Below are positions 2,816 to 32,099 of a stretch of 32,099 bases of DNA, piece by piece. This stretch comes from a virus, in the IMG/VR virus record IMGVR_UViG_3300032287_001444, positions 1 to 32,099 of that record; one strand, written 5' to 3'. The notes beneath the pieces are model-generated. The model did not search any database. It was not told where the DNA came from and worked only from the letters and a program-made list of their open reading frames with translations. The position numbers and the translations under genes were made by a program. The stretch's first letter is position 1. The number at the start of each line of letters is the position of its first letter.

Positions 2816-3154
2816 ATGCCCGCACCGACTATCACGCCGCTGCCTCCCGCACCGTCGCGTTCAACCGATCCAGCCACCTTTGCGACTGAAGCGGATGCCT
2901 TTGTCGGTGCGCTGCCGACATTTGGCACTGAGGCAAACGCTTTAGGAATTTATATTGATGCGGCGGCGGCGCTTGGGCAAGCAGCGATTGCCAATTTCAA
3001 AGGCGCTTATGCTGCCGGCACCACATACCAGATTGGAGAGTCTGTTTTATACAATGACTTTTTCTGGATGGCGCTAACAATCAACACAGGCGTTACGCCG
3101 GTTGAAGGTGCAAACTGGCGCAATGTTTCAATTGTTGACGGAGGCACATTCTAA
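2816..3154 (+). CDS. small tail fibre-associated protein with CBM5/12-like module
   Basis: This 112-residue protein has two parts. Residues 1-60 have a Pro/Ala-rich start followed by the DPATFATEADAFVGALPTF type of sequence that is common near the start of phage tail fibre proteins. Residues 64-103 form a compact module with Y..GTTY..GE.V.Y...FW.....N.G..P.....W spacing, like small chitin/cellulose-binding modules. It abuts the gene before it and overlaps the next by TAATG. It is probably a fibre or tip accessory that contacts a surface glycan. The ligand cannot be read from the sequence. Confidence 0.6.
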   Translation: MPAPTITPLPPAPSRSTDPATFATEADAFVGALPTFGTEANALGIYIDAAAALGQAAIANFKGAYAAGTTYQIGESVLYNDFFWMALTINTGVTPVEGANWRNVSIVDGGTF

Positions 3155-4632
3155 TGCCGACCATTATCAAAGTTAAGCGCGGCACAGAAGCCAATCGCGC
3201 AGCCGTAACGCCTGCCTCTGGCGAATTTCTGTTTACCACTGACAACAAGAAAGTTTTCATTGGTGACGGCACAACGGCTGGCGGCGTTTCTGTGGGCGGC
3301 GCTGTTGCGTTTGAACAGTCAATTAAGGCTGTAAATTATACGCTTGTGCTGCAAGACGCTGGAAGGCAGATTTTTCACCCGGCATCTGATGCGACAGTCA
3401 GGACATATACAATTCCTGCCAATTCTGCTGTGCCGTTTCCTATCGGCACGGTTGTGCTATTTACAGTGGAAAATGGCGGGACGTTAGTAAACGTAGCCAT
3501 AACCAGCGACACGTTGGTGTTTGGCAACGGCACAACAGGCACAATTTCTGTTCCCGTAAACAATACACTAATGTGCATTAAAGTTACCGCAACAAAATGG
3601 ATGGCTAACTACCTTTACCAAACAGGCGCTCCAGTATCGCAATCTTTAGCTGTAGCCCATACAACAACACCTTTTATTACGGCTTATCCTTGGTCTACTA
3701 GCGGATTCGGAACTAAGTTTGCCAATCCAGCTACGTTGCCAGGCACTCTCGGAAATGGAGTAGCCTTTAACTCATCTGGCAATGCTATCGCAGTAGCTGA
3801 CCAAGGCTCACCTTCTATAAAGGTGTATAATTGGTCTAATAATGGTTTTGGCGCAAAGTTTGCAGACCCAGCTACATTTCCGGCTGGCAATAGCTTTGGC
3901 GCAGCATTTAGCCCCTCTAACAACGCTATTGCGGTAGCACACGCAACCACACCTTTTGTTTCTGTTTACCCTTGGAGTGCTATTGGCTTCGGAGCTAAAT
4001 ACACTGACCCCGCTACGCTGCCGACTGGTTCTGGCTCAGAAGTAACTTTTAGCCCATCCGGAAACACTCTTGCCTTAGCACACAGTGTTTCGCCATTCAT
4101 TTCGGCATACCCTTGGAGTGTTAGTGGCTTCGGGACTAAATTTACCGACCCTTCTACGTTGCCGACGAATGTGGGCCAAGCAGTAGCCTTCAACCCAGCC
4201 GGTGATGCTATCGCTGTTGCACACGTTACATCGCCATTTATCTCTGTATACCCTTGGAGTGGTTCTGGATTTGGCACTAAATTTGCTAACCCTGCCACGC
4301 TGCCAACAGGTTCGGGTAATGGTGTAGCATTCCACCCGTCTGGCACTGCCATTGCAGTATCTCATGAAACAACGCCTTTTATCTCTGTCTATCCTTGGAG
4401 CGGTTCTGGTTTTGGGACTAAATTTGCCAACCCAGCGACATTGCCTGTGGGTAATGCCTATGGCGTTGCGTTTAATGCTTCTGGCGATGCTATTGCCGTG
4501 GCGCACCTGACCACACCTTTTGTTTCCGTCTATCCTTGGAGCGGCAGCGGTTTTGGCACTAAGTTTTCTAATCCGGCGACACTGCCTGCGGGTGCTGGTT
4601 CTGCCGTAGCGTTCACACTTAGCTCGCAATAG
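3154..4632 (+). CDS. tail fibre / receptor-binding protein with predicted seven-bladed beta-propeller
   Basis: This 492-residue protein starts with a module (residues 1-48, K.KRGT.ANR...P..GE..FTTD.K..FIGDGTT) like the N-terminal attachment domain of Mtd-type phage fibres. A beta-rich linker follows to about residue 160. Residues about 165-492 are seven consecutive repeats of about 47 residues, each with the pattern AVAH.T.PF.S.YPWS.SGFG.KF.NPATLP.G....VAF..SG.AI. Seven WD40-like repeats are the expected number for a closed seven-bladed propeller. The last three repeats are nearly identical. The repeat region looks more A+T-rich than its neighbours, which fits acquisition or repeat-driven evolution. 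It probably binds the host receptor at the tail tip. Confidence 0.75.
   Translation: MPTIIKVKRGTEANRAAVTPASGEFLFTTDNKKVFIGDGTTAGGVSVGGAVAFEQSIKAVNYTLVLQDAGRQIFHPASDATVRTYTIPANSAVPFPIGTVVLFTVENGGTLVNVAITSDTLVFGNGTTGTISVPVNNTLMCIKVTATKWMANYLYQTGAPVSQSLAVAHTTTPFITAYPWSTSGFGTKFANPATLPGTLGNGVAFNSSGNAIAVADQGSPSIKVYNWSNNGFGAKFADPATFPAGNSFGAAFSPSNNAIAVAHATTPFVSVYPWSAIGFGAKYTDPATLPTGSGSEVTFSPSGNTLALAHSVSPFISAYPWSVSGFGTKFTDPSTLPTNVGQAVAFNPAGDAIAVAHVTSPFISVYPWSGSGFGTKFANPATLPTGSGNGVAFHPSGTAIAVSHETTPFISVYPWSGSGFGTKFANPATLPVGNAYGVAFNASGDAIAVAHLTTPFVSVYPWSGSGFGTKFSNPATLPAGAGSAVAFTLSSQ
3646..4629 (+). repeat. seven tandem ~141-bp coding repeats (propeller blades)
   Basis: Within the fibre gene, units of about 141 bp encode the YPWSGSGFGTKFANPATLP blade motif. 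YPWS or YNWS recurs seven times. The units between about 4220 and 4629 are closest to one another at the DNA level, so homologous recombination could change blade number or content. Confidence 0.85.
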
Positions 4633-11015: not shown

Positions 11016-11224
11016 AACGGCACCTCCCTTGGCTGCACATCGTATGGATCGAACGCCTTCCAATCCTGACATGCGCTTGGCGTTCCCTGAAATTGATCCG
11101 GTGGCGTTGCGGCGTGTTTGTGGCAATGGTTCGTTTCCCGGTGAAAATAGTTGCAGTCCCAGCACAGCTTAGGCCGGGCAGCTTCCCAGTCAATCAGCGC
11201 AGCCGGCTTTGTTGCCATACTCAT
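11012..11224 (-). CDS. Cys/His-rich mini-protein, likely zinc-binding (70 aa)
   Basis: The start at 11224 overlaps the previous stop by ATGA; an alternative ATG lies at 11218. The 70 residues contain CWDCNYFHRETNHCHKH and a later C, giving a CxxC...CxH...C arrangement typical of small zinc-binding modules. It lies between a PAPS-reductase-like gene and a VRR-NUC gene and overlaps both, so it is translated in step with them. No named family is recognised. A nucleic-acid or partner-protein adaptor role is inferred. Confidence 0.7.
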   Translation of the reverse strand: MSMATKPAALIDWEAARPKLCWDCNYFHRETNHCHKHAATPPDQFQGTPSACQDWKAFDPYDVQPREVPF

Positions 11225-11964
11225 GCCTTCATGTCCTGTTCTGCAATATGGCAAAGAAAGTCACAGGCTGGCGCGATTGGGTTTAGCGTTGGCCAATCTG
11301 CCGGCACTTCATCAATAAACACCCGCACATCGCCCGGCATCCGCGCCAAGCGCGCTCCAAGTTCGCGTGACAGCTTCACCATGCGGTCAAAGTCGGCGGG
11401 AAAGTGCAGGCGCATCGCGGCCCAGTAGTTCGGGCTGGTCGCTTTTGGGCATGGGATGCAGTTGTTGTTCTGAAAGCCCAACGCATACATGGGCGGCAGT
11501 TCAATCCCCGCGCTTTGCAGCATGGCAAGGCAGGCTTGTTTTGTAATACCGCGTTCAATAAGCGGAAATCGCACCAGCAATTCAGGATTGTGCAGATTAA
11601 AGCGTTCGGCGCGCTCCACGTCTTCACTGTCGGCGGTATAGCCAAAAACATGCACGTCACCGGGTTTCTGGAATGCAATGCGCGGCTGCTTTTTTAATGC
11701 CCCGGTGCATGGAGCGCCCGCGATGCCGGCAATGTAACGGCGTTGCTCCCACACATCCCAAGTGTCAAGATATTCAGGGTTGGATAGCCGCTTAATCGGC
11801 GCGTTAAACCACCGCACACAATCGGCCATAAACCGCTCGTTGTCAGGGTGTTCGCTGCCGGTTTCACAATATGCAACCACGGCAGTAGGCTGTTCAGACA
11901 GCATCAGCTTTGCAGCAACCGCGCTAGCGGCACCGCAGCTAAACCAAATTATATTTCTACTCAT
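11221..11964 (-). CDS. phosphoadenosine phosphosulfate (PAPS) reductase-like protein (247 aa)
   Basis: The N-terminus IIWFSCGAASAVAAKL (S9-C10-G11-A12-A13-S14) is the phage-type variant of the SGGxxS ATP-pyrophosphatase loop. GAPCTGALKK near residues 83-92, FGYTADSEDVERAERF, and C169-x2-C172 complete the PAPS-reductase/DndC-like pattern. Members use ATP-type chemistry for sulfur or nucleotide reactions; DndC takes part in DNA phosphorothioation. I chose the second of two ATGs (11964), which overlaps the helicase stop and has GGGAGG upstream; the first is 11970. No DndA, D or E partner is present, so the role is unknown. Confidence 0.8.
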   Translation of the reverse strand: MSRNIIWFSCGAASAVAAKLMLSEQPTAVVAYCETGSEHPDNERFMADCVRWFNAPIKRLSNPEYLDTWDVWEQRRYIAGIAGAPCTGALKKQPRIAFQKPGDVHVFGYTADSEDVERAERFNLHNPELLVRFPLIERGITKQACLAMLQSAGIELPPMYALGFQNNNCIPCPKATSPNYWAAMRLHFPADFDRMVKLSRELGARLARMPGDVRVFIDEVPADWPTLNPIAPACDFLCHIAEQDMKA

Positions 11965-13541
11965 CCCCATAGCCTCCCAATGATGCGATAATATTTGCCA
12001 TCGCGTTTATATGTTATGCCGGTTGGCGGCTTGCCACCGCTTAGGATCGCCGCAACTCCGTCTAGCGTCATGGACGGCTTAAGCGCAACGCCGGCATTGC
12101 TGGCGATGATGCCAAGCGTGGCCACCGCTTTCTCCCCGGCATAACCTTCGTGCGTGACCGTTAGATATTCCTTCACGCCAGGATCCGACAGAGCGCCATA
12201 ATAGGTGACTTCCAGCATATCCTTGCCGCTGGTCTTGCTGGTGTGTTTGCGCCAGCGCCATGACGTGACAGGCATTTCGGACGGCGCAAAGCCCATAATA
12301 TCGTCGTTGTGCAGCCGGTAGGTTTTAGGCTCTGGCGCGGGAAACTCTGAGCCGCAAGCCGGGCAGATTTTTACGCTGGGATGGCATAGCTCATCGCAAA
12401 ACTCGCAGACTTTCACCGGAGCTTCACCGTCGCCTTTGCCGGCTTTGGTTGGCGGCTGCACAGCAGTGATCGGGCCGTGTGTAGCTACAACGCCGGCAAA
12501 GTCTAGAACAAGGCAATCAGCCTTGCCCGGCGCAACGCGAAGCCCGCGCCCAGCCATCTGCACATAAAGTGCCGGCGACATGGTGGGCCGCAGCATGGCA
12601 ATCAGATCAATTGCCGGAAAGTCAAAGCCGGTGGTCAAGACTTGGGCATTGGTTAGCGCCTGAATCCGCCCAGCTTTGAAGTCGGCAATCATGCGCTCCC
12701 GTTCCGCCTTTGGCGTTGCGCCAGTCACGCAATTGGCTGCAATGCCGCGATCATTAAGCAGATCGGCAATGTGCTGGGAATGTTCAATTCCTGTACAAAA
12801 CAGCAGCCAATGTTTACGATCTGAACCAAGCGCCATGATTTCAGCCACGACGGCGCTGTTGTTGTCGTCGGTATCAACCGCCGCCTGCAACTCGCTTTCG
12901 ATAAATTCGCCGCCACGTTTGTGGACGCCATCTAGGTCAAAGCGGGCCTTCGTCACCTTGCTGCGAAGCGTGGTCAAAAATCCTTTGTAAACCAGTTCTT
13001 CAATGGTCACCGGATCAATCAAACCATCAAACAGCGCCGGCTTGTCAGTAATAAGGCCATGCCCCAAGCGGTAAGGCGTGGCGGTCAGGCCCACGACACG
13101 CAACGCCGGATTTATGGCCAGCAAGGCGTTTAATAGCGTCCTATACCCGCCCTCATCCTTGTGGCTGACAAGGTGGCATTCGTCGATAATGACAAGATCA
13201 ACATGCCCTAGCAGATGCGCCTTTTCTCGCACCGATTGGATGCCTGCAAACGTGATCGGCTCCCCAAGCTGGCGTTTGCCAATGCTGGCGCTGTAGATGC
13301 CCAGCGGTGCGCCAGGCCAATGTTCGCGCATTTTGGCGGCGTTCTGTTCAATAAGTTCCTTCTGGTGCGTCAACATCAGCACCCGCGTTTCAGGCCAGTT
13401 TTGCAGCCCTTCCTTGCAAAGTGTAGCTACAATGTGACTCTTGCCCGCGCCGGTTGGCAGCACAAGGCACGGATGCCCATCGTGTGACCGCATCCAATCG
13501 TAAAGATCGTCAAGAGATTTTCTTTGATAATCACGAAGCAT
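11961..13541 (-). CDS. SF2 DEAD/DEAH-box helicase with zinc ribbon (526 aa)
   Basis: The start MLRDYQ at 13541 overlaps the upstream nuclease gene by 11 bases; the longer frame to 13574 is less likely. Motifs of superfamily 2 helicases are in order: PTGAGKS at 29-35, DECH at 120-123, TATP at 153-156, TTGFD near 303-307 and QMAGRGLR at 328-335. A zinc ribbon follows with C379, C382, C393 and C396. This is the common phage recombination or replication helicase (UvsW/RadD-like architecture). It remodels DNA branches beside the nuclease and Sak4-like ATPase. Confidence 0.9.
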   Translation of the reverse strand: MLRDYQRKSLDDLYDWMRSHDGHPCLVLPTGAGKSHIVATLCKEGLQNWPETRVLMLTHQKELIEQNAAKMREHWPGAPLGIYSASIGKRQLGEPITFAGIQSVREKAHLLGHVDLVIIDECHLVSHKDEGGYRTLLNALLAINPALRVVGLTATPYRLGHGLITDKPALFDGLIDPVTIEELVYKGFLTTLRSKVTKARFDLDGVHKRGGEFIESELQAAVDTDDNNSAVVAEIMALGSDRKHWLLFCTGIEHSQHIADLLNDRGIAANCVTGATPKAERERMIADFKAGRIQALTNAQVLTTGFDFPAIDLIAMLRPTMSPALYVQMAGRGLRVAPGKADCLVLDFAGVVATHGPITAVQPPTKAGKGDGEAPVKVCEFCDELCHPSVKICPACGSEFPAPEPKTYRLHNDDIMGFAPSEMPVTSWRWRKHTSKTSGKDMLEVTYYGALSDPGVKEYLTVTHEGYAGEKAVATLGIIASNAGVALKPSMTLDGVAAILSGGKPPTGITYKRDGKYYRIIGRLWG

Positions 13542-16936: not shown

Positions 16937-17215
16937 ATGCACTACTCTCTCGCTTCCGCGCTCACTGAAGCCACTCCGATGGCTTGCGCTGCTTTGCTTG
17001 CTCAAGGCATCACCCACATTGTTTGCGTGGAAACGCGCACTGGCGCTTGGACGCTGCTTCACGCTGATAGCGTGAGCCATGCTCACAATCTTGCCCGCGC
17101 ATGGGTGGATAACATGGAGGCGCGTGGCGCTTCTGTTCGGCGGATTTACAAGGAAGGGCCGCACACAAAGCCGTGCTTCACGGTTTATGAGCAATTTGGC
17201 ATGGAGGAAGCATGA
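16937..17215 (+). CDS. strongly expressed early protein of unknown function (92 aa)
   Basis: The ATG at 16937 has AAAGGAG six bases upstream. The 92 residues (MHYSLASALTEATPMACAALLAQGITHIVCVETRTGAWTLLHADSVSHAHNLARAWVDNMEARGASVRRIYKEG...) look like a small alpha/beta protein with a central VCVETRTGAW strand pair. The first codons use CTC, TCC, GCT and CAC more than neighbouring genes do, in a style seen in highly expressed genes. With the strong promoter, this suggests abundant early expression. No family is recognised. It could be a host-takeover or anti-defence protein. Confidence 0.7.
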   Translation: MHYSLASALTEATPMACAALLAQGITHIVCVETRTGAWTLLHADSVSHAHNLARAWVDNMEARGASVRRIYKEGPHTKPCFTVYEQFGMEEA

Positions 17216-17412
17216 CTCCCGATGCACTACGCGCAGCACCGGCAGCCCTTGGCCTATCTGGCCGGGGGCTTGCCCGCGCTCTTAACGTGAATGAGAAAAC
17301 GTGGCGACGATGGGTGGCGGGACAAGTTCCGATCCCTCGCAGCGTTGCATTAGCGGTGCAAGCCATGCTTGATGGCTGGCAACCGAAACCAGAGGCGATG
17401 AACAATGGCTGA
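17212..17412 (+). CDS. helix-turn-helix protein (66 aa)
   Basis: This 66-residue protein has LGLSGRGLARALNVNEKTWRRWVAGQVPIPRSVALAVQAML, a standard HTH with recognition helix near NEKTWRRWVAG. The start overlaps the early gene stop by ATGA and the end overlaps the primase-helicase gene by eight bases. It is therefore translated along with the replication gene and may control it or bind the origin. Confidence 0.75.
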   Translation: MTPDALRAAPAALGLSGRGLARALNVNEKTWRRWVAGQVPIPRSVALAVQAMLDGWQPKPEAMNNG

Positions 17413-19447
17413 TCTAACCAACATTTTCGGCGGCGCATGGTCACCGCCAGCAGCGCCGCAGTATGATCCACCAGAGGCGCAACTAGCCGCCGCGATGGAG
17501 CGGGCGGGCATAACCCCGCCGTCACATATCCAGCTTGATGGCAAACTGCACCGTTTCAACGGCAAAACCAAAGGCAAGCCCGGCCATGATGTGCCATCGT
17601 GGTATTGCGCTTTTGGCGATGGAGTTCCGGCTGGGCGGTTTGGTGATTGGCGTCTAGGTGTTGAAATTACATGGCGCGCCGATGTGGGCCGGACTTTAAC
17701 GCCAGCAGAAGAGGCGATCAATGCGCGGCGTTTGGCGGAAGCGAGGAAGGTGCGAGAGGCTGAATTGCAACGCCAGCGTGAGGTTGCATCAAACACGGTA
17801 GAAGATATTTGGTCGAAAGGAATGCTGGCAGAGTCGTGGCATCCATACCTTGAGCGCAAGGGCATTGCTGGTCACGGTTTGCGTGTTACAGGCGACGGTC
17901 GCTTAATGGCACCAATCTTTACGGCAGATGGCAATCTATCCAGCTTGCAATATATTCAAAACGAAGGCGAAAAACGGTTTCACCCTAGCGGCCAAACAAG
18001 CGGTTGCTTTTGGATGGTCGGCACAATGGATGAGCCTGGGCCATTGTTTATTGCCGAAGGCTTTGCAACTGCCGCAACCATCTTGGAATCGACCAATCGG
18101 CCATGTGCCATTGCCTACAGCGCCCACAATTTGCCAAGCGTAACAGGCGCATTGCGTGATCGTTATGGGAGCGGGCAAGAGATCATTGTTGTGGCAGACA
18201 ATGACAAGTCTGGCGTCGGCATGGCGTATGCAACGCAAGCTGTCGCGAAGCATGGAGGCCGCGTGGTGATGCCTCCGCAGGAAGGCCAAGATGCCAACGA
18301 CTACCGGGCGGCTGGTGGTGATCTTAAGGCATTGCTCTTGCCGACCAGTGGCACGGAGGCCATGCGGCGGCTAGAAGTGCAGTTTGGCGATGAACTGCCA
18401 GCCGAATATGAACCGCCAGACGAACTGGTCGAAGATGTGATGGTGCGCGGCAAATCCACCGTGATCTATGGGGACAGCAACAGCGGCAAGACGTTTTTTG
18501 CGCTTGGCCTAGCCGCTGCCATTGCCGAAGGACGCGAAGCATATGGCAAACGCACCGATCCCGGTATCGTTGTGTATCTGGCGTGTGAAGCGCCTGGCAG
18601 CATCAAAGCCCGGCTAAAGGCCATTGCCAAATTTCAGAACGTCTCGCTTAAGCGCATTGCCGTTGTGCCAGTGCCGCTCAATTTTTATACCGGCGATGCA
18701 GACGCGGCTGCCGTTATTGCTGCGATCCGAGAGATTGAGGCTATCAAAGGCCAAGCGGTTAAACTGGTGATCGGCGACACCTTGGCCCGTATGTCATCCG
18801 GTGCAAATGAAAACAGCGGCGAAGATATGGGGCCGGTCATGGATCGGTTTGAGGAAATTTGCCGCGCGACTGGTGCAGCTATGCTGATCATTCACCACAA
18901 CGGCAAAGACGCAGCCAGAGGCGCGCGCGGCTGGTCGGGCATCCGCGCCCATATCGACACTGAGATTGAGGTGGTGGAAAAAGACGGCCAGCGCAGTGCG
19001 ACCATCACGAAGCAACGCGAGTTGGCTTCTAAGGGTGAGATCATTTATTTTAAGCTGGAAATAGTGGAGATGGGCGAAACCAAATTCGGCAAGCCCGCCA
19101 CCACATGCGTTGCGGTTCTGGATGAGGCCGCCACCGAAAACGAACCATCCAAAAAGCCTAGCAAGCATGACGAAACAGTCAGGCTGTGGGAGGCTGCATG
19201 GTGGGACGGTGGCGCGGAAGTAGAAGGCAGCTATCCTTATATCAGCCGCAGTTTCATGCGGACATATCTGGTAGAAAAGCGCCGCTATGCTGACAAGACC
19301 GTTCGCAACAAACTAGACCCAAGTCGTGATGATGGCATGGTGATGCCGATGGTCAACGCCGGCATTTTGCAGGCACACCAACATGGCTGGCAGATCGTCT
19401 GCCCGGTCAAATCTAGCGCGCTTTTGGCGATCAAAAAGGCCAAGTGA
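17405..19447 (+). CDS. TOPRIM primase-helicase / RepA-like replication protein (680 aa)
   Basis: Residues 61-96 have the WYCAFGDGVPAGRFGDWRLG.E.TWRA signature of phage and mobile-element TOPRIM proteins. The TOPRIM core is LFIAEGFATAATI (E218) and VVADNDKSG (D265, D267), followed by DANDY. A second half is a RecA-like ATPase: GDSNSGKT (356-363), VIGDTLARM (D458) and IIHHNGKDAARGARG (near 495-510), as in hexameric RepA/DnaB-like helicases. It is probably the replication initiator-primase. No zinc-finger primase motif is evident at the N-terminus. The repeat cluster lies just downstream. Confidence 0.85.
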   Translation: MADLTNIFGGAWSPPAAPQYDPPEAQLAAAMERAGITPPSHIQLDGKLHRFNGKTKGKPGHDVPSWYCAFGDGVPAGRFGDWRLGVEITWRADVGRTLTPAEEAINARRLAEARKVREAELQRQREVASNTVEDIWSKGMLAESWHPYLERKGIAGHGLRVTGDGRLMAPIFTADGNLSSLQYIQNEGEKRFHPSGQTSGCFWMVGTMDEPGPLFIAEGFATAATILESTNRPCAIAYSAHNLPSVTGALRDRYGSGQEIIVVADNDKSGVGMAYATQAVAKHGGRVVMPPQEGQDANDYRAAGGDLKALLLPTSGTEAMRRLEVQFGDELPAEYEPPDELVEDVMVRGKSTVIYGDSNSGKTFFALGLAAAIAEGREAYGKRTDPGIVVYLACEAPGSIKARLKAIAKFQNVSLKRIAVVPVPLNFYTGDADAAAVIAAIREIEAIKGQAVKLVIGDTLARMSSGANENSGEDMGPVMDRFEEICRATGAAMLIIHHNGKDAARGARGWSGIRAHIDTEIEVVEKDGQRSATITKQRELASKGEIIYFKLEIVEMGETKFGKPATTCVAVLDEAATENEPSKKPSKHDETVRLWEAAWWDGGAEVEGSYPYISRSFMRTYLVEKRRYADKTVRNKLDPSRDDGMVMPMVNAGILQAHQHGWQIVCPVKSSALLAIKKAK

Positions 19448-19448
19448 C

Positions 19449-19709
19449 ATGGACATGAGTTATAGCGACAGCTTGGATGATGGCGTTTGGATTGAGGAGT
19501 TAAGTTGCTTTCTATGCCGCATGGAAATTGACATGATAGCAAAAGTGGTGCGGTTTAGTCTGGCTTGGATGAATGCGGCAGACAGACGCGGGGCAATTGC
19601 TATCGCCAAAAAACACCTGCCAGACGTAAAAATTATTGTGATTGTTGCGCCGCGAAAAGCACTTTATGAATTGCGATTTGAGCATGGCGAATGGCTGAAA
19701 TATGCATAA
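19449..19709 (+). CDS. hypothetical protein (86 aa)
   Basis: The start at 19449 follows the primase-helicase stop by one base; no clear ribosome site is seen, so translation may be coupled. The 86 residues begin acidic (MDMSYSDSLDDGVWIEEL), contain a CFLC pair, and end with a beta-like segment VKIIVIVAPRKALYELRFEHGEWLKYA. No family is recognised. It ends just before the repeat cluster. Confidence 0.55.
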   Translation: MDMSYSDSLDDGVWIEELSCFLCRMEIDMIAKVVRFSLAWMNAADRRGAIAIAKKHLPDVKIIVIVAPRKALYELRFEHGEWLKYA

Positions 19710-19856
19710 AAGAACCATGCCCCTAATGCCCCTTTTTGCCCCTAGGGGCATCAGGGGCAAAAGCGGAAAAAAGGCCGAAATTATGCCCCTCCCTGCCCCT
19801 GCACCCTATAGGGCAGGGGCATAGGGGCATCGGCATTCAGACAGGGAAGGTGAGCA
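19710..19856. repeat. iteron-like cluster of nine WTGCCCCT repeats (candidate replication origin)
   Basis: The 7-mer TGCCCCT occurs five times on + (19718, 19727, 19737, 19784, 19794) and four times on minus (19744, 19753, 19815, 19823) within 112 bases. They make two large cruciforms. One is TTTTGCCCCT (19734-19743) with AGGGGCAAAA (19753-19762). The other nests TGCCCCT around CCCTATAGGG near 19794-19821. An A-rich stretch lies between them. The region is non-coding and next to the primase-helicase gene, as origins often are. A transcription terminator or repressor-site array is the alternative. Confidence 0.6.
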
Positions 19857-20033
19857 ATGTTTGAGATTGGTTTAAAGGTTGTGGTGCTAGACGCTTCCAA
19901 CCTGCCTTGCAAAGCTGGCGATGCTGGCGTGGTTGTGGAAGTCAGGCAAAGCGCACGGGACTTTCCCATTGGCGTGATGCTGGGCGATCATGTCGAATGG
20001 TTTCGGGAAAATGAGTTGAAGGTGGTGGCATGA
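19857..20033 (+). CDS. small beta-rich protein (58 aa), SH3/KOW-like
   Basis: This frame begins at ATG 19857 with AAGGTGA upstream and ends at 20033, overlapping the next start by ATGA. It encodes MFEIGLKVVVLDASNLPCKAG, GDAGVVVEVRQSARDFPIGVMLGDHVEWFRENELKVVA. The pattern G..V.V.D........G..G.V......G..V......EWF...EL..V is that of small SH3-like barrels. The function is unknown. Ribosome site and overlap support it as a real gene. Confidence 0.65.
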   Translation: MFEIGLKVVVLDASNLPCKAGDAGVVVEVRQSARDFPIGVMLGDHVEWFRENELKVVA

Positions 20034-24439: not shown

Positions 24440-25461
24440 ACGCCGCCGACCGCTTGGCTGATCTTTATACGATCCGCCAGCTAATCCTTAACCGGCTGGC
24501 GGCTGGTGAACAGGCGCGGCTTAATCGCCAGTTGCTTGAAGTGTCACGCGAGATTGAAAAGCGGATCAAGACCGGCAAGCCGCTAACCAGCTTTCAGGGC
24601 AAGCGGCTGGATCGCGCCATTGCTGACTTGCAAAAGCTGGTGAAGATCACGCAACCGAACCTAGGCGAATTGGCGGCGCTAGAGGCGGCGTTTGCCCGGC
24701 AGGCTTTCGCCACCATTTCCATTGATGCCGTGTTGCCCGGTGCGTCTGTGATTGACCGGATCGCCAGCACAAGCCTGGTGCAAGGCGCGACGATGGGCCA
24801 ATGGTTCCGCCGCATCCGTGACCAAATCGCCTTTGACATTGAGCGGGCCGTTAAGACCGGCGTTGCGCTTGGCGACACCAATGAGCAGATTGCCCGATTA
24901 ATTGTTGGCGACGGAATGCGCGGGCCAGAAGCGTTCCCGCGTGGCCGGCGTGACGTCATGGCAGTGACCCGAACGGCGGTGCAGACGGTGGCCAATGATG
25001 CCCGGCTTGCCACGTTTGAGGCCAACACCAACGTGATCAAGGCGGTGCAGTGGATCAGCACCCTAGACAGCCGCACTAGCGACATTTGCATTGCACGATC
25101 CGGCCTTGTTTGGACGCTGCCCGGCTATAAGCCGCAGGGGCATAACATTGAATGGCAAGGGCCGCCGCCCGCGCATTGGGCTTGCCGATCCACCATCATC
25201 CCGATCACCAAAACATTCCGCGAACTTGGCCTAGACATTGATGAAGTGCCGGCATCCACTCGCGCCAGCATGGACGGGCAAGTCGCCGCCGATCTGACTT
25301 TTGGCGATTGGCTGAAAGGCAAGCCAGTAGAGTTTGCCGATGAGATGCTAGGCAACGGCCGCGCCCAGCTTTGGCGTGATGGCAAGATCACGTTGCAGGA
25401 CTTGCTAAACGCGCAAGGCGTTCCGCTAACGCTGCGGCAGTTGCGTGAGAAATACGGCTAA
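24436..25461 (+). CDS. Mu F-like minor head protein (341 aa)
   Basis: The GTG start overlaps the fibre gene stop (GTGA). Residues 209-252 carry the head morphogenesis signature: TLDSRTSDICIARSGLVW....KPQGHNIEW...PPPAHWACRS. A helical N-terminus precedes it. MuF-like proteins are minor capsid proteins that are packaged or bind near the portal and normally follow it. Here the collagen-like gene is inserted between the two. Confidence 0.85.
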   Translation: MNAADRLADLYTIRQLILNRLAAGEQARLNRQLLEVSREIEKRIKTGKPLTSFQGKRLDRAIADLQKLVKITQPNLGELAALEAAFARQAFATISIDAVLPGASVIDRIASTSLVQGATMGQWFRRIRDQIAFDIERAVKTGVALGDTNEQIARLIVGDGMRGPEAFPRGRRDVMAVTRTAVQTVANDARLATFEANTNVIKAVQWISTLDSRTSDICIARSGLVWTLPGYKPQGHNIEWQGPPPAHWACRSTIIPITKTFRELGLDIDEVPASTRASMDGQVAADLTFGDWLKGKPVEFADEMLGNGRAQLWRDGKITLQDLLNAQGVPLTLRQLREKYG

Positions 25462-30760: not shown

Positions 30761-32099
30761 ATGGCCGAACTTGCAAGGCTTCGGATCGCAGTAGACAGCA
30801 CAAGCGCCAAGACCGCCGAACGCGATCTTGAAGGGCTTGCGTCTGCGGCTGGCAATACTGGCCGCGCTGTTGATGCGATGATTGCCGGCCAAAAGCGCAT
30901 GACTGACGCCATGCAATCGGCTCACAAGCCGACGCTTGATGCGGTGCGCTATCTGGATTCGCTTAACCGTGAGCTAGAAACGATTGGCAAGTCGTCGCTG
31001 CAAATCAAGGCGATGGAAATCAAGATGGCCGCTGCGGCGGCTCCCACCGCCGAACTGGCGCGTGAAATCCGCAACATGGGCGCTGCACTTATTAATGCCG
31101 AACGCGCGGCCATGACTAGCACACCGCACATCACCAGCATGGGCAACAGCACGAAGCTGGCCAGCCATCACACGCAAAACTTGGCCTTCCAGTTGCAGGA
31201 CGTTTTTGTTGGTCTGACAAGCGGCCAAAAGCCAATGACCGTGTTTTTCCAACAGGGCAGCCAAATCGGCCAGATCATGATGCAATCTGGCCTGAGCGTT
31301 AAGACGTTTGCCGCAGAAGTTGCCGCAATGACGGGCCGCGTTGCGGCGGCTGTTGCGATGAATCCTTATTTTCTGGCGTTTGCCGCTGCGGCTGGCACTG
31401 CGTTTGTGGCGTTTCAAGACTTTCAGGCGGAAGTGGGCAAGACCGGCGAACTGGAAAAGTTTCAGGCCAGCCTTGGCTTGACCCGAAAAGAGCTTAAGGA
31501 ACTAGAAAAGGAAGTCGGCCCGGCTGCCATCACGATGGGTGATGTGTTCAAGGGACTGGGCAAGACCATTTCGGACGCCTTGAACCTTGGCCCGGCTTTT
31601 GATGCGTTCAAGGAAGGCTTCTTTGCAACCTTCCGCTTTGTGGCGGAATTGGGCAGCGATGTGGCGGCTGGCATCTATGCGGCGTTCGTCGGCACCTATC
31701 AGGGCATTATTGAGACGTATAAGATGCTTCCCGCCGCAATGGGCGATGTGTTGACCCAAGCCGTCAATGGCATGGCCAGGGGCTTGGAGACATTCCTTAA
31801 CGGCTTCATTGCGTCAACAAACACGATCCTTGGCAAGTTCCAACTGCCAAAGATTGATCTAGTCGTTGACATCCCCGAACTGCAAAACCGCTACGCTGGC
31901 GCGGCTAACGCTGCCGGCACGGCGTTCACAGGGCAGATCAAGCAGGCGTTCAAGGACGCTAAAGACGGATTTAGCGCGGCTGGTGACACACTGAGCGCCA
32001 ACATCATTGACGCCGCAAAGCAGCGTATGCAGGGCGGTGCAGATACGATCCTTGACGAACGCACTTTGAAGGCGGCAGCGGAAAAGGCCGGCAAGACGC
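30761..32099 (+). CDS. tail tape measure protein, N-terminal part (continues at base 1)
   Basis: The gene starts at ATG 30761 with the unusual GGGGCTTGCTTA context and runs off the window end. Because of the 123-base overlap it continues in frame at bases 3-1925 to give 1046 residues in all. The N-terminus (MAELARLRIAVDSTSAKTAERDLEGLASAAGNTGRAVDAMIAGQ) and the segment TQNLAFQLQDVFVGLTSGQKPMTVFFQQGSQIGQIM are typical of phage tape measure proteins. A hydrophobic stretch lies at AMNPYFLAFAAAAGTAFVAF. Confidence 0.9.
   Translation, partial: MAELARLRIAVDSTSAKTAERDLEGLASAAGNTGRAVDAMIAGQKRMTDAMQSAHKPTLDAVRYLDSLNRELETIGKSSLQIKAMEIKMAAAAAPTAELAREIRNMGAALINAERAAMTSTPHITSMGNSTKLASHHTQNLAFQLQDVFVGLTSGQKPMTVFFQQGSQIGQIMMQSGLSVKTFAAEVAAMTGRVAAAVAMNPYFLAFAAAAGTAFVAFQDFQAEVGKTGELEKFQASLGLTRKELKELEKEVGPAAITMGDVFKGLGKTISDALNLGPAFDAFKEGFFATFRFVAELGSDVAAGIYAAFVGTYQGIIETYKMLPAAMGDVLTQAVNGMARGLETFLNGFIASTNTILGKFQLPKIDLVVDIPELQNRYAGAANAAGTAFTGQIKQAFKDAKDGFSAAGDTLSANIIDAAKQRMQGGADTILDERTLKAAAEKAGKT
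31977..32099. repeat. right copy of 123-bp terminal direct repeat
   Basis: Identical to bases 1-123. See the left copy for its meaning. Confidence 0.95.

Follow-up and report, generated by a model that had tools for sequence, protein, structure and literature searches.

The window, by which we mean the whole 32,099-nucleotide stretch of viral DNA analysed here (IMG/VR record IMGVR_UViG_3300032287_001444, positions 1 to 32,099), begins and ends with an exact 123-bp direct repeat (1–123 and 31977–32099), and because of this terminal repeat we take it to be complete, a unit of 31,976 bp that is either circular or circularly permuted. It encodes a 680-aa primase-helicase, and a dense cluster of short repeats lies beyond the 3′ end of that gene (Table 1). 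The AAA_25 helicase domain of the protein has a single solved relative, RepA of plasmid RSF1010 (1g8y, E 4e-8). The start of the gene (17405) is overlapped by a helix-turn-helix (HTH) gene (17212–17412), as the initial annotation of this DNA had noted. That annotation also placed the repeat array straight after the replication operon, which is true of the close relatives L003–L005, where the array sits at the primase-helicase stop, and not of the window, in which a 108-aa open-reading frame (19383–19709) with no PHROG or Pfam match, one that L003–L005 lack, intervenes.

Table 1. Coordinates of the primase-helicase gene, its neighbours and the components of the repeat element in the window.
Feature	Position	Strand	Basis or remark
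HTH regulator gene, 66 aa	17212..17412	+	Judged not to bind the array
Primase-helicase, 680 aa	17405..19447	+	Toprim_3 aa 214-305; RSF1010-RepA-like AAA_25 aa 320-503; C-terminal winged helix (modelled) ~aa 577-680
C-terminal winged-helix domain, proposed iteron reader	19131..19444	+	AlphaFold model; natural swap breakpoint 19131; co-variation with iteron
Predicted recognition helix DKTVRNKL, aa 630-637	19292..19315	+	Model; N635 aligns with specificity residue
108-aa ORF between primase-helicase and array	19383..19709	+	Found in some close relatives only
Origin-like element, whole conserved unit	19708..19859	+	Block shared with L003-L005; sole iteron cluster of the genome
Iteron copies 1-3, TGCCCCT direct	19718-19724, 19727-19733, 19737-19743	+	Exact copies
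Iteron copies 4-5, inverted, end of block 1	19744-19750, 19753-19759	-	Exact copies, dyad arms
GGGGCAAAAGC box, fused in the window to iteron copy 5	19754..19764	+	Family-invariant GGGCAAAA box
Iteron copies 6-7, direct	19784-19790, 19794-19800	+	Exact copies
Dyad centre CCCTATAGGG, CTATAG at 19806-19811	19804..19813	.	CT(A/T)TAG-type centre in relatives
Iteron copies 8-9, inverted, end of block 2	19815-19821, 19823-19829	-	Exact copies, dyad arms

The repeat cluster

The nine copies of TGCCCCT/AGGGGCA, in both orientations, that had been reported within 112 bases are all exact (19718–19829, order +++--++--), and only one further copy of TGCCCCT is found in the window, at 25136. Dinucleotide shuffles yield 5.1 copies per 32 kb, which corresponds to ~0.018 expected per 112 bp and a Poisson probability of ~5e-22 for at least nine copies in that length; the array is also the only place in the genome where GGGGCA occurs in a cluster of at least four copies. 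The longer iteron WTGCCCCT, as first proposed, describes eight of the nine copies and fails for copy 7, which reads CTGCCCCT. Both of the large hairpins that had been claimed, one centred on a repeat and one around CCCTATAGGG, were located: the arms of block 1 (19718–19733 and 19744–19759) are complementary at 15 of 16 positions and hold copy 3 inside a 10-nt centre, and the arms of block 2 (19782–19793 with 19812–19823, and 19794–19802 with 19813–19821) are nested round CCCTATAGGG. Folded as a single strand, the array reaches -72.7 kcal/mol (z -4.1). Between the two iteron blocks the window has a spacer of mild AT-richness, a bias that the family profile does not show consistently.

Comparison with L003–L005 delimits the element, which is 97–98% identical between the window and these three relatives, whose genes on either side differ, and the resulting unit (19708–19859) nearly equals the interval first marked (19710–19856). 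The primase-helicase gene itself is ~96% identical in the three relatives, and a different gene start lies downstream of the array.

The same layout with other repeat words in relatives

Relatives of the 680-aa primase-helicase were gathered from viral contigs, bacterial genome contigs and annotated phages, most of them being uncultured contigs; the non-redundancy of loci was judged by k-mers of the element itself, and iteron types were assigned by simple counting. In 97 of 104 non-redundant loci, the first 450 nt beyond the primase-helicase stop contain an array, a CT(A/T)TAG-centred dyad or both; in 87 the array could be clearly assigned to an iteron type, and 85 have the dyad. The repeat word differs by lineage and includes GGGGCA/GGGGCG, GGTGA, GGTAAC, GGAAC, AGGGGGC, GGGTCA, GGGACA, GGTACA, GGTTCA and GGTATA, besides others, and in each of five whole records the array is the only cluster of its repeat word in the genome. 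Two iteron sets are found in relatives as in the window. The dyad is centred on CTATAG, CTTTAG or the like, with arms that vary freely (49 distinct dyads): among the inner seven pairs of these dyads (n = 343) there were 314 Watson-Crick pairs, 4 G-U, 11 A-C and 14 others, and since G-U is not commoner than other mismatches the family dyad suits a DNA dyad rather than an RNA hairpin. Allowing one mismatch at most, the GGGCAAAA box was present in 66 of the 85 dyad-anchored elements on the array strand against 8 on the opposite strand, ~45 nt 5′ of the dyad centre (47 elements share one 5-nt bin), and a GATGCRG box lies ~25 nt past the dyad centre. Both boxes stay constant while the repeat word changes.

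Four loci (L006–L008 and L013) have an almost identical core without an obvious array, and in L083 and L031 likewise no array was seen; a search for an array at another place within the L006–L008 loci found none. The array region had no blastn match among the annotated phages, and an exact search of the viral contigs with the window dyad returned close relatives only, so no separate satellite carrying the window array was seen. Four whole phage records were inspected, and none annotates an origin or a repeat at the place of the element; the element was also not described in the literature covered by a partial search.

The repeat word and the C-terminal domain

The C-terminal domain of the primase-helicase is confidently modelled (AlphaFold pLDDT 87.8, order of elements H-E-H-H-H-E-E-H) as a winged helix, in which residues 630–637 would form the recognition helix. 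Comparison of this domain with Pfam and PDB sequences gave nothing convincing, Foldseek gave no match to the model at E ≤ 0.001, and VIA returned generic winged-helix neighbours only (best Z 7.0). On a tree of the C-terminal domain the iteron type changes 22 times (minimum 15, shuffled 58), compared with 44, 40, 31, 32 and 30 times on trees of five other 110-aa segments; by this count the repeat type tracks the C-terminal winged-helix domain better than any other segment of the primase-helicase. Mutual information per column was left out, being dominated by two helicase classes.

For one pair of repeat words the association narrows to a single residue. Between phages with GGTAAC and those with GGAAC iterons, one alignment column of 671 separates the types in 32 of 32 cases and is the only perfect column; it corresponds to Q627 of L060 and N635 of the window, falls in the predicted recognition helix, and holds Q in the GGTAAC phages and V, T or K in the GGAAC phages. 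Residue and iteron type change together in six of six independent pairs, where p = 0.03 is a post hoc value, the residue having been found by scanning.

Natural recombinants that exchange only the C-terminal domain have a changed or lost array. L053 and L061 are 98–100% identical save for the C-terminal domain (50%), and their iterons are GGAAC and AGGGGGC, respectively. The window and L006/L008 are 96–98% identical in DNA over 17404–19131, that is up to codon 576, and then unrelated up to 20224, so that the C-terminal domain and the array were replaced together and the array is gone in L006. The block that takes their place in L006–L008 (L006:9513–10248) contains a second open-reading frame and no iterons; the N-terminal part of its product resembles, by eye, the winged helix of the primase-helicase (TATNVLTPSRKGSMINTLLADGVIEHHGPLGYRI), it has no Pfam or PHROG match, and it is possibly a separated origin reader. 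The other end of the protein is also exchangeable: L032 (1634–3526) has a Prim-Pol/PriCT primase instead of TOPRIM and retains the helicase, the C-terminal domain and the layout of the element, and because all three are kept with another primase type the element belongs with the helicase and C-terminal domain.

Evidence for origin function and alternative explanations

Perfect DnaA boxes (TTATCCACA) are ~39-fold enriched next to the primase-helicase, with 71 in the 41 kb adjoining the stop and 31 in the other 711 kb. They are present in 39 of 105 elements and recur at offsets +6, +18, +197 or +130. Inserted genes in L051 put the element 1 kb from the primase-helicase, and there the DnaA boxes still flank the array; the genome of ct3Oc712 has three DnaA-type boxes, two of which flank the element. 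Neither the window nor its closest relatives have a DnaA box. Cumulative GC skew, proposed earlier as a check, reaches its minimum in the window 2.7 kb upstream of the array, at the divergent promoter, and does not change sign at the array; in four of five genomes the minimum lies at a divergent promoter 1–3 kb away, a position at which skew is confounded with transcription, and the check is uninformative.

From the conserved element and its conserved position, the co-variation of iteron and C-terminal domain, the natural domain swaps and the enrichment of DnaA boxes, all observed here, we infer physical binding, helicase loading and a start of replication at the element. The repeat cluster is in our judgement very probably the replication origin of the phage, with the C-terminal domain of the adjacent primase-helicase as its reader, and two of the options first put forward, a phage origin and a binding array for the TOPRIM-helicase, would then be one and the same thing. 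We propose that the C-terminal winged-helix domain would bind the AGGGGCA(A/T) iterons in both blocks, that the RepA-type, presumably hexameric helicase would thereby be loaded at the CTATAG-centred dyad and GGGGCAAAAGC box, and that the fused TOPRIM domain would prime synthesis. Host DnaA probably helps in many of the relatives via the boxes flanking the array, and the window clade, which lacks them, presumably depends on its own initiator. Against the origin reading speak this lack of DnaA boxes in the window clade, the GC skew that does not switch at the array, the spacer that is not consistently AT-rich, and the loci such as L006–L008 and L013 that keep the core and show no obvious array.

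The most serious competitor, to which we give a small but real chance, is that binding of the C-terminal domain to the array serves regulation, of the downstream genes, of copy number or of incompatibility by handcuffing as at P4 crr, with replication starting elsewhere. All the evidence for binding (the swaps, the co-variation and the residue column) fits this equally well, and the downstream genes begin ~30 nt past the array; however, those genes vary widely whilst the element stays, the DnaA boxes keep fixed offsets, and none of the five whole records has a second iteron cluster.

Three further explanations are much less probable. The array might consist of operators for the product of the HTH gene that precedes the primase-helicase gene, an option of the initial annotation that draws on the usual position of the HTH gene at the head of the operon; it is very unlikely, as the array is unchanged where another HTH gene (L002/L003) or a methyltransferase gene (L004/L005) occupies that place and no other TGCCCCT site lies near the operon promoter. 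The suggestion of a complex terminator, or of a structured RNA at the operon's 3′ end, has the fold (z -4.1) in its favour and is still harder to maintain, given that no T-tract follows the hairpins, G-U pairs (4 of 343 in the 49 dyads) show no RNA signature, an Rfam scan gave no match at the array, and a DNA-binding domain changes in step with the repeat word. Hardly credible at all is a packaging (pac/cos) site: the terminase genes do lie 0.4 kb downstream of the array in the window, but in two cultured relatives terS is farther off, 1.8 kb away in Salicola phage CGphi29 and ~6 kb away in Alteromonas phage PB15, and it is the primase-helicase, not the terminase, that the array follows.

Comparison with known replicons

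In SaPIs and SCCmec, the C-terminal domain of a helicase reads iterons directly 3′ of its own gene (PMC7581432, PMC6092414). The putative origin described here resembles the SaPI/PICI rep-ori and SCCmec Cch2 systems in lying directly 3′ of the initiator-helicase gene, and in its iteron sets, its predicted C-terminal reader and its element-specific words (PMC6092414, PMC7581432). It differs from both in the helicase, which belongs to the D5_N/Primase_C or DUF927 kind there and to the AAA_25 RepA type in the window; in the CTATAG-centred dyad, the GGGCAAAA box and the GATGCRG box of the family elements and the DnaA boxes often found with them; and in the setting, which for the family is an entire tailed phage.

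P4 and pRN1 share this plan more loosely. Phage P4 alpha, like the protein of the window, combines a TOPRIM primase, a helicase and a C-terminal winged helix (here modelled) in one protein and uses iterons. The helicase of P4 alpha belongs to SF3, and its ori and crr are separate sites; unlike these, the helicase of the window is a RepA-like AAA_25 domain of RecA type, and each of the five whole records has a single iteron cluster per genome. The oriV of RSF1010 shares with the window a RepA-family helicase (the 1g8y relative) and iterons with hairpins at the origin, a putative one in the window; RSF1010, however, divides the work of iteron binder, helicase and primase among three separate proteins, RepC, RepA and RepB′ (PMC4234260), whereas these functions would be fused in one 680-aa polypeptide in the window phage. 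ORF904 of pRN1 offers a stem-loop origin directly 3′ of a primase-helicase ending in a winged helix, but it is an archaeal prim/pol with an SF3 helicase and has no iterons (PMC4234260). The best reading is an initiator, helicase and primase in one self-contained protein, followed directly by its cognate origin; the pair would work in the manner of SaPI and P4 with a helicase of the RSF1010-RepA type, and because of that helicase we keep the element apart from the SaPI/PICI, SCCmec, P4 and pRN1 families.

We consider it rather likely that these loci represent a class of phage origins that is widespread and unannotated. In this class a single polypeptide, comprising primase, RepA-type helicase and winged-helix reader, would form with the adjacent origin a cassette that sets specificity and can be exchanged; reader and iterons would co-evolve by domain swaps and single recognition-helix substitutions whilst the CTATAG-type dyad and the GGGCAAAA and GATGCRG boxes remain fixed. 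If this is true, iteron words could be predicted from protein sequence, and there would be a sequence rule for locating the replication origins in a large group of phages, both cultured and uncultured, whose records have no marked origin. The recombinants would be natural experiments in which initiator and origin shift specificity together with function retained, and the predicted single-residue specificity switch (Q versus V, T or K) is directly testable.

Other features of the window

Away from the array, a PAPS-reductase-like gene (11221–11970, minus strand) lies in the replication/recombination region. An int-alpA RNA (Rfam RF02996; 29801–29863, 50.6 bits against a gathering threshold of 35.8) sits between two tail-region genes, just ahead of a tail assembly chaperone gene. 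A further tail gene (3154–4632) encodes an Mtd_N (major tropism determinant) domain and contains a 141-bp repeat (47 aa) in seven copies; its product could be a propeller-like receptor-binding protein.
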